Below, in pieces: positions 12,029 to 13,343 of a stretch of DNA of 64,000 bases. Both the position numbers and the translations under genes were made by a program. The number at the start of each line of letters is the position of its first letter. Position 1 is the stretch's first letter. The DNA is from Panagrolaimus kolymaensis. Taxonomy: Eukaryota; Nematoda; Chromadorea; Rhabditida; Panagrolaimidae. The notes below the pieces were generated by a model. It saw only the letters and a list, made by a program, of their open reading frames with translations, was not told the origin of the DNA and did no database searches. The DNA lies in assembly GCA_028622995.1 (NCBI GenBank), contig JAJQJQ010000002.1, forward strand, positions 3,100,001-3,164,000. The letters are read 5' to 3'.

Positions 12029-13343
12029 ATGAATAGAAATTCAACTTCATCACAATCGGGTATTTATTATGTTATTGATGGAAGTCGAAAGCGTCGCATA
12101 ATTAGTTAGTGTTTTTTCCTTAAAATATTTTATAATGTCTTTTTTAAAGATAATTATCCAGAAAATTCAAGAGGAAATACCCACTATGATTTCAGTAAAA
12201 ATCCACCCAAAGCAGCGAATGGAAATGGCGAACCGTAAGCTTTAAAGATTTTTTTTAAAGTTGTAAACTTTATATTCCTTCTCTTTAAAGACTATCTCAA
12301 GATCATCAAAGACAGCATATAAATAAATTTCGTGAACAAATGTCCTTTGTTTCAAATGCCCTAATAAAAGGTGATCCTCCCATTCGATGTCGTGAGGATA
12401 ATCCATCGCTATCACGAAATCAGCGATATGAAATTCAAGCAGCGGATGAAGTTGATGATGGCAGCCCTGTAAGCAAACCGACATTCTTGTCGGTTGAAAC
12501 CGACAGTTGTCGGTCTAGACCGACAAAAGCAACTTTTAGAACGAAAGTTTCACTTTGTTTTTGATTTTCAAAATCTTTCGAAATCTTTCAAAATTAGGAA
12601 ATTTTTCGTAAGACTTTGAAAATCAAAAACAAAGTGAAACTTTCGTTCTAAAAGTTGCTTTTGTCGGTCTAGACCGACAACTGTCGGTTTCAACCGACAA
12701 GAATGTCGGTTTGCTTACAGGGCTGGATGATGGTACGTTTTTGTTGCAAGGTTCAAAAATTCATCTTTTGTTCATTTTCTTTTAGAGGATGAAATAATTC
12801 CCGAAGAAGACGAATTTGTTTATGAATCAACAACGTGAGCTTCTTCTTGTTGACCCTTTTTATAATATTATTTTTTGTTTTTTTAGAACATCATCAAACC
12901 CTGTTCGTGATCACCCACAACGACCTTCTTATTGGATTACGAACATGATGGTGGAAGCACCTGAACGACCATTAATGACAACGGTTGATCCTTCAACTTG
13001 TACAGATGTGGCCCTCCTTCGAGAATCCCTTCACCATGCTAATGCATGTTTAATTGATTTAGTTGAGCAACAAAAGAAGCAAAAACGATTAACTTCCATT
13101 TGGAAAGCACGTTTTCAAGTTGAATGTAACAAGTAAAGTTCCTCATTTTTTGCTTTTTTCCTCTTTTGCATGAATGAAAGTTTTAGAAGTGATGATTTTC
13201 AAAGAATTTTACTTGAGAGGAATCTTCGAATGAAGCAAGTTGTTAGTGAAAATGTTCGATGGGGTATTCGTTATTCGCGATTGAAACAACATTTTGGTGA
13301 TGAAGATGTAATAAAAGCTCTTGGTGATTTAGCTCCCAAATAA
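12029..13343 (+). CDS. Unknown protein, interrupted by a foldback transposon
   Basis: Not recognised. Exons: 12029-12104, 12150-12234, 12291-12468, possibly a 12-nt exon 12721-12732, then 12788-12834, 12887-13132, 13187-13343, giving about 262 or 266 aa. The N-terminus is polar and low in complexity, with an acidic stretch (DEIIPEEDE) in the middle. The C-terminal ~110 residues look folded and helical (DVALLRESLHHANACLIDLV, QKKQKRLTSIWKARFQ, RWGIRYSRLKQHFGDED). The foldback element at 12462-12725 occupies the exon 3/exon 4 junction. Without it, exon 3 would end GATGATG before a GTACGT donor and join in frame to the exon starting at 12786. With it, the reading frame survives only if the acceptor two bases further (12788) is used; the stronger acceptor gives a stop after three codons. 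The allele may therefore be altered or damaged. Confidence 0.65.
12462..12725. mobile_element. hAT-like foldback MITE acting as a possible intron (introner)
   Basis: A 264-bp palindrome. Arms of 111 bp (12462-12572 and its reverse complement ending at 12725) are identical; the centre is imperfect. The ends read CAGCCCTGTAAGC...GCTTACAGGGCTG. The flanks are 8-bp direct repeats GATGATGG at 12454-12461 and 12726-12733, the target duplication length of the hAT superfamily, whose termini typically begin CAG. There is no coding capacity, so it is non-autonomous. Each arm carries five CCGACA/TGTCGG boxes, plausible subterminal transposase-binding repeats. The left terminus provides GT at 12469 (GTAAGC donor) and the right terminus ends in TTACAG at 12720, so almost the whole element can be removed as an intron. 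Perfect arms suggest a recent insertion. Confidence 0.88.

Follow-up and report, generated by a model that had tools for sequence, protein, structure and literature searches.

A palindromic hAT-like element with splice-like ends at an exon border in one homoeolog of a Panagrolaimus kolymaensis gene

Structure of the element and its target site

The locus lies in a 64,000-nucleotide stretch of Panagrolaimus kolymaensis DNA (assembly GCA_028622995.1, contig JAJQJQ010000002.1, positions 3,100,001 to 3,164,000), referred to here as the window. It contains a 264-bp palindrome at 12462–12725, which is identical to its reverse complement at 252 of 264 positions (126 of 132 pairs) and has inverted arms free of mismatches over the first 111 bp. 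The 8-bp target-site duplication GATGATGG borders it on both sides (12454–12461 and 12726–12733), and the palindrome, the perfect arms and the duplication described in the original prediction were all borne out. One terminus is CAGCCCTGTAAGC and the other GCTTACAGGGCTG, and the two contain CTGTAAGC/GCTTACAG; the GTAAGC/TTACAG-type ends, said to be symmetric in either orientation, are likewise present and receive plausible splice-site scores. No open reading frame of at least 90 aa occurs inside the window element. The predicted RNA fold of 12440–12750 has an energy of -224 kcal/mol (z = -34.7 against 100 shuffles), and both terminal splice-like sites are buried within its stem. The features of the locus are as follows.

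12291–12460, plus strand: exon 3 of the host gene (predicted model, conserved panagrolaimid protein), interrupted at its last bases
12454–12461, no strand: left target-site duplication GATGATGG, made up of the final 7 nt of native exon 3 and the G of its GT donor
12462–12725, no strand: palindromic hAT-like foldback/MITE element, 264 bp, with 111-bp perfect arms
12469–12474, plus strand: donor-like GTAAGC within the left terminal repeat, scoring at the 39th percentile among 51 predicted native donors
12715–12720, plus strand: acceptor-like TTACAG in the right terminal repeat, at the 24th percentile of 51 predicted native acceptors
12726–12733, no strand: right target-site duplication, which keeps the native exon 3 donor (GTACGT from 12733)
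12786–12834, plus strand: predicted exon 4 of the host gene, with the native acceptor AG at 12784–12785 and a second AG at 12786–12787

Host gene and homoeologous copies

Database matches of the host protein comprise three proteins from Panagrolaimus and Panagrellus, the best of which shows 54% identity over the whole length. The P. kolymaensis genome is described as triploid in the part of PMC10374039 consulted, and both other homoeologs carry an empty site, between C6:4159790 and 4159791 and between C32:1864695 and 1864694, where the flanks are joined with a single GATGATGG. The empty site that the original prediction had proposed to seek in sister strains was found in these homoeologous contigs of the same genome. 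In C6 and C32, the native structure consists of an exon 3 end ...GATGATG, a donor GTACGT (C6) or GTAAGT (C32), an acceptor TTTTAG and exon 4, and the joined reading of C6, EVDD followed by EDEII, aligns with DEIIDDDTI of a Panagrolaimus relative. Because the empty sites display this native structure, the insertion point in the C1 copy, that of the window, is in the predicted model the exon 3/intron 3 border. The native donor is lost at the left duplication and kept at the right one. Apart from the insertion, the C1 gene model has an intact reading frame from start to stop, and the insertion therefore looks young.

Two further observations concern the C32 homoeolog. The same exon 3 there contains an unrelated 438-bp inverted-repeat element (C32:1864765-1865202, L011/L016) with the 8-bp duplication GTGAGGAT, so that exon 3 is uninterrupted only in C6 among the three host-gene copies. 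In addition, the first 460 bases of the left flank are matched again approximately 12 kb away on C32, by a partial duplicate (L015, C32:1877239-1877704).

Copies of the family in the genome

The 20-bp terminus was searched with up to 2 mismatches against the assembly of 265,843,910 bases in 807 contigs, yielding 50 forward and 52 reverse matches (102 in all), compared with 0 + 0 for a reversed control pattern, an excess well outside chance. Among the matches listed of these 102, both flanks were read for 43 insertions; this set leaves out the partial L031, L032 and L033, which do not have two ends, and the one-ended L067-L071, does not count the second tandem copy of L038 separately, and counts L040 and L041, which share flanks, as two. 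Perfect 8-bp duplications flank 37 of the 43 insertions (33 of 38 two-ended copies measured and 4 of 5 more by eye). The 38 two-ended copies comprise lengths of 46, 48 and 95 bp, fifteen of 250-292 bp, eighteen of 1028-1176 bp, and single lengths of 2399 and 4577 bp. Near-perfect palindromes are common among them, with arms up to 690/690, and some copies have only short matching ends of 22-59 bp.

A second 264-bp copy, situated 486 kb away on the same contig, is identical at 264/264 positions and has a different duplication, ATGCTGTG. Of the 13 sites compared with their homoeologs, nine are empty in two other contigs; L027 has an empty counterpart in one contig and L056 in several related copies, and the remaining two (L050 and L024) were scored neither empty nor shared; no insertion shared between homoeologs was seen at these 13 sites. 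The recent movement suggested earlier from the perfect arms is therefore upheld by the empty homoeologs and the identical copy with its own duplication, and on these sequence comparisons the palindromic family is young.

Superfamily assignment and transposase source

The termini of hAT elements begin with CAG, and their target preference is nTnnnnAn. Terminal inverted repeats starting with CAG are present in the family. The fit to nTnnnnAn is weak, with 5 full matches among 31 distinct duplications (the window site left out); T at position 2 and A at position 7 account for 31 of 62 half-sites (p 0.025), and the signal is stronger at the adjacent positions 3 (T) and 6 (A), with 36 of 62 (p 0.0006). 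The element is best described as a hAT-like MITE, with the superfamily inferred. The claim of a hAT-type MITE in a nematode accordingly held for the nematode host, the 8-bp duplications and the CAG ends, whereas the superfamily itself stays short of proof.

Of 216 candidates for the hAT dimerisation domain (PF05699) in the genome, 150 were scored, with 150 matches. No two-ended autonomous element with the family termini was found, and none of the 150 scored matches is tied to these ends. The only scored match near a listed terminus is L076 (C26:1785807-1787806), where pieces of a hAT-type transposase gene, one of them containing PF05699, lie approximately 4.5 kb from a lone family terminus; a second terminus is absent from the 9.8 kb read, and approximately 0.3 such neighbours would be expected by chance (estimated from 50 loci and 150 matches with a span of 10 kb). 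The 4577-bp copy L034 was considered as an autonomous element and rejected: the 5 of its 21 listed open reading frames that were scanned are without a transposase domain, with one weak match below the family cut-off.

The missing linked transposase and the weak target preference would also suit an element of another superfamily with 8-bp duplications, such as P or Merlin. The CAG start, the 8-bp duplications and the abundance of hAT transposase genes in this genome argue against such an origin, which we regard as improbable. Most likely, a hAT-type transposase supplied in trans moved the non-autonomous element, by a recent cut-and-paste event, into the final bases of exon 3 of a single homoeolog out of three.

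Strength of the splice-like sites and consequences for the reading frame

Splice-site matrices were self-trained on 51 introns of the window and the fetched loci, themselves predicted from sequence alone by an intron finder limited to 28-90 nt. Such a finder has no bearing on an intron of 252 nt, and intron length was therefore dropped as an argument. Window-wide, 8% of GT and 12% of AG dinucleotides score at least as high as the terminal sites, and within the element an acceptor-like site at 12539 scores 6.7 versus 4.9 for the terminal acceptor. As scored, the terminal splice-like sites are plausible, unremarkable and of ordinary strength, and the resemblance of the terminal-repeat CTGTAAGC to a donor/acceptor pair is probably incidental.

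Splicing at GTAAGC (12469) and TTACAG (12720) would retain 7 + 5 element bases together with the 8-bp duplication, that is, 20 nt, shifting the frame by +2. The small footprint that the original prediction left as in frame or not can thus be given exactly: if both terminal sites are used, it is 20 nt and out of frame in a coding exon. Modelled terminal splicing leads to premature stops in the window gene (...EVDDGSPGWMMRMK), L046 (...CEPLNQPWLP), L052 (...IIKTSPG) and L047 (...DGFSPGWMDSK), each ending directly at a stop codon, and merely extends the protein at L050, which sits at a stop codon. Retention of the element introduces stops in all five of these exonic copies when modelled. As to the state of the host genes, that of L050 has an in-frame stop further up, and that of L047 has its frame broken near the site.

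In the window gene, the native acceptor TTTTAGAG contains a second AG (12787). In the models its use keeps the products in frame, whether the terminal acceptor is used or not; it is the only frame rescue among the joins modelled for this gene. This AG scores 6.0 versus 7.5 for the native AG two bases upstream. The C1 gene copy is presumably damaged, because either retention or terminal splicing combined with the native acceptor would end the reading frame prematurely, ahead of the conserved C-terminal half. Such damage may be tolerated because the other homoeologs exist.

Genomic context of the insertions

To describe where the copies sit, a codon model built on 3469 codons from 21 hand-chosen open reading frames of the window, one of them overlapping the host gene, was combined with reading by eye. 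At threshold 14, a coding signal is present at 10 of 43 sites, compared with 425 of 1132 flank positions (37.5%) and 582 of 1471 window positions (39.6%), with a p value of 0.035 that is nominal, the flank positions being spaced 60 bp apart and non-independent. The corresponding counts for sites and flank positions are 7/43 and 345/1132 at threshold 20, 4/43 and 262/1132 at threshold 25 (p 0.018, likewise nominal), and 1/43 and 212/1132 at threshold 30. If anything, then, insertion sites are depleted in coding-like DNA. By reading, the ten sites with a coding signal divide into five exonic ones (the window, L046, L047, L050 and L052), four that fall within existing introns (L048, L058, L017 of a Patched-family gene and L054 of a DnaJ-domain gene) and one immediately ahead of an ATG (L056). 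The exonic copies outside the window lie at C27:183347, C39:1027996, C31:1786570 and C27:254459. By this simple model, which could miss coding DNA, a coding signal is lacking at the remaining 33 of 43 sites. The original prediction proposed to ask how many copies coincide with introns: 0 of 43 sites hold an intron that is bounded by the element at its terminal sites and frame-neutral, and the four intronic copies lie inside pre-existing introns.

A separate observation concerns L072/L073 (C2:8124449 and C55:1502086), where, in two closely related contigs, a family terminus ending GCTTACAGGGCTG precedes the ATG of an RNA-dependent RNA polymerase-like gene (PF05183) by 15 nt, and its TTACAG ends 20 nt ahead of this ATG. 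The stretch read there showed no second terminus. This terminus could act as a cis- or trans-splice acceptor.

Intron creation, partial splicing or incidental ends

According to the original prediction, the element may be an introner active in a nematode, that is, a transposon that creates new introns by carrying both splice sites in its terminal repeats in either orientation. The plausible, orientation-symmetric sites at both ends agree with this, as do the youth and copy number of the family; many similar copies with presence/absence differences between relatives, a pattern used to recognise introners, are seen in it, and known introners of Aureococcus can carry both sites together with 8-bp duplications, according to the part of PMC9860276 consulted. 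Against it stand the 20 retained nucleotides (12 + 8, frame +2), the lack of frame neutrality at the terminal sites in 5 of 5 exonic copies, of which four would be prematurely stopped and L050 extended, the absence of any enrichment of sites in coding-like DNA, and the lack of any insertion seen to be shared among the 13 homoeolog-tested sites; the lone terminus in two related contigs sits upstream of an ATG. Introners should sit in genes as introns, and the copies examined do not. The reading is unsupported and is rejected on frame and location for these copies, and we consider it extremely improbable.

A weaker form of splicing, resembling that of maize Ds1, would excise the element from a fraction of the transcripts, at its terminal sites or others close by, and soften the damage without abolishing it; at the window gene, the tandem acceptor AGAG (12785/12787) would then allow some in-frame protein with an added GSP or GSPGWMM. 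The terminal site scores fall inside the native range, the modelled products are in frame with acceptor 12787, and Ds1 splicing is on record by the titles cited in the part of PMC3260210 consulted. The frame-restoring AG is nevertheless weaker than the native AG two bases upstream, the element contains a stronger acceptor-like site at 12539, and both terminal sites fall in the predicted RNA stem, which leaves this reading doubtful, although incidental splicing of the element from some transcripts is possible. If used at all, the terminal sites would point to leaky, imprecise transposon splicing of the Ds1 kind and not to intron creation. A bolder proposal is that of a proto-introner, in which the terminal repeats supply a matched donor/acceptor pair in both orientations and exonic transcripts are partly spliced, the tandem acceptor of the window gene bringing the 20-nt scar into frame and keeping the protein alive, and a terminus elsewhere serving as an acceptor upstream of the RNA-dependent RNA polymerase-like gene start; we hold this to be very unlikely. 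The reading we prefer, and judge likely, is that of a non-autonomous hAT-like palindromic foldback/MITE in a triploid, parthenogenetic nematode, recently inserted by cut-and-paste transposition at the end of exon 3 of one homoeolog, whose splice-like ends are probably incidental and at which meaningful splicing would be absent.

Comparison with known systems

Transposon splicing from messages is an old observation. Maize Ds1 is a hAT element that makes 8-bp duplications. Ds1 is reportedly spliced from exons, and maize Ds is said to be spliced from messages, as the titles of the reports have it. Those reports (Dennis 1988, Wessler 1991 and Giroux 1994) are cited on maize Ds in the part of PMC3260210 consulted. 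The window element resembles Ds1 in being non-autonomous, of hAT type and inserted in an exon, with Ds1 reportedly spliced from the message; unlike Ds1, it is an almost perfect palindrome whose two terminal repeats carry the sites symmetrically, and any splicing of it is hypothetical.

The Aureococcus introners share with the window element the nature of a DNA element, the 8-bp duplications and the possession of both splice sites. According to the portion of PMC9860276 available, however, they add 4 + 8 = 12 nt and stay in frame, whereas the window element adds 12 + 8 = 20 nt and its family is not concentrated in coding DNA. These figures provide a simple quantitative introner test, in which the sum of retained element bases and duplication should be divisible by three: the Aureococcus introners pass (4 + 8), and the window family fails (12 + 8) despite having both splice-like sites. 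In the main text of PMC9860276 (Gozashti 2022), 'nematod' and 'hAT' have 0 occurrences each.

Among nematode inverted-repeat, MITE-like elements, the Tm1 Mutator/Foldback elements of root-knot nematodes, as covered in the part of PMC3169594 consulted, are comparable by description (end sequences were not compared), but most commonly have 9-bp duplications and composite terminal repeats, in contrast to the 8 bp of the window family. Other hAT MITEs, such as Mar of Drosophila (PMC3517528, consulted in part), are also short, non-autonomous and of hAT type, a likeness again of description only. No comparable family appeared, by title, among the matches listed from open-licence literature on introners, hAT MITEs, nematodes and Panagrolaimus. 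Since the triploid genome supplies internal empty sites, the family constitutes a natural experiment on the tolerance of exonic transposons and on the softening of damage by incidental splice sites; if RNA showed real splicing, a nematode transposon-to-intron transition would have been caught early.

Unusual copies

Several copies are unusual in form. Those of 46 or 48 bp (L039, L042 and L058, at C5:2685806, C16:1901474 and C54:472636) consist of hardly more than two 22-bp ends with 8-bp duplications, and may be minimal mobile units or else larger palindromes that have lost their central part; the site of the minimal copy L042 is empty in two other contigs. At the other extreme, L036, L052, L054 and L056 have perfect inverted arms of 483 to 690 bp, and could, if transcribed, give rise to long double-stranded RNA. 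At L022 (C203:15224), the 40-bp flanks are exact reverse complements of each other, and its contig thus resembles either a larger palindrome or a fold-back of the assembly.
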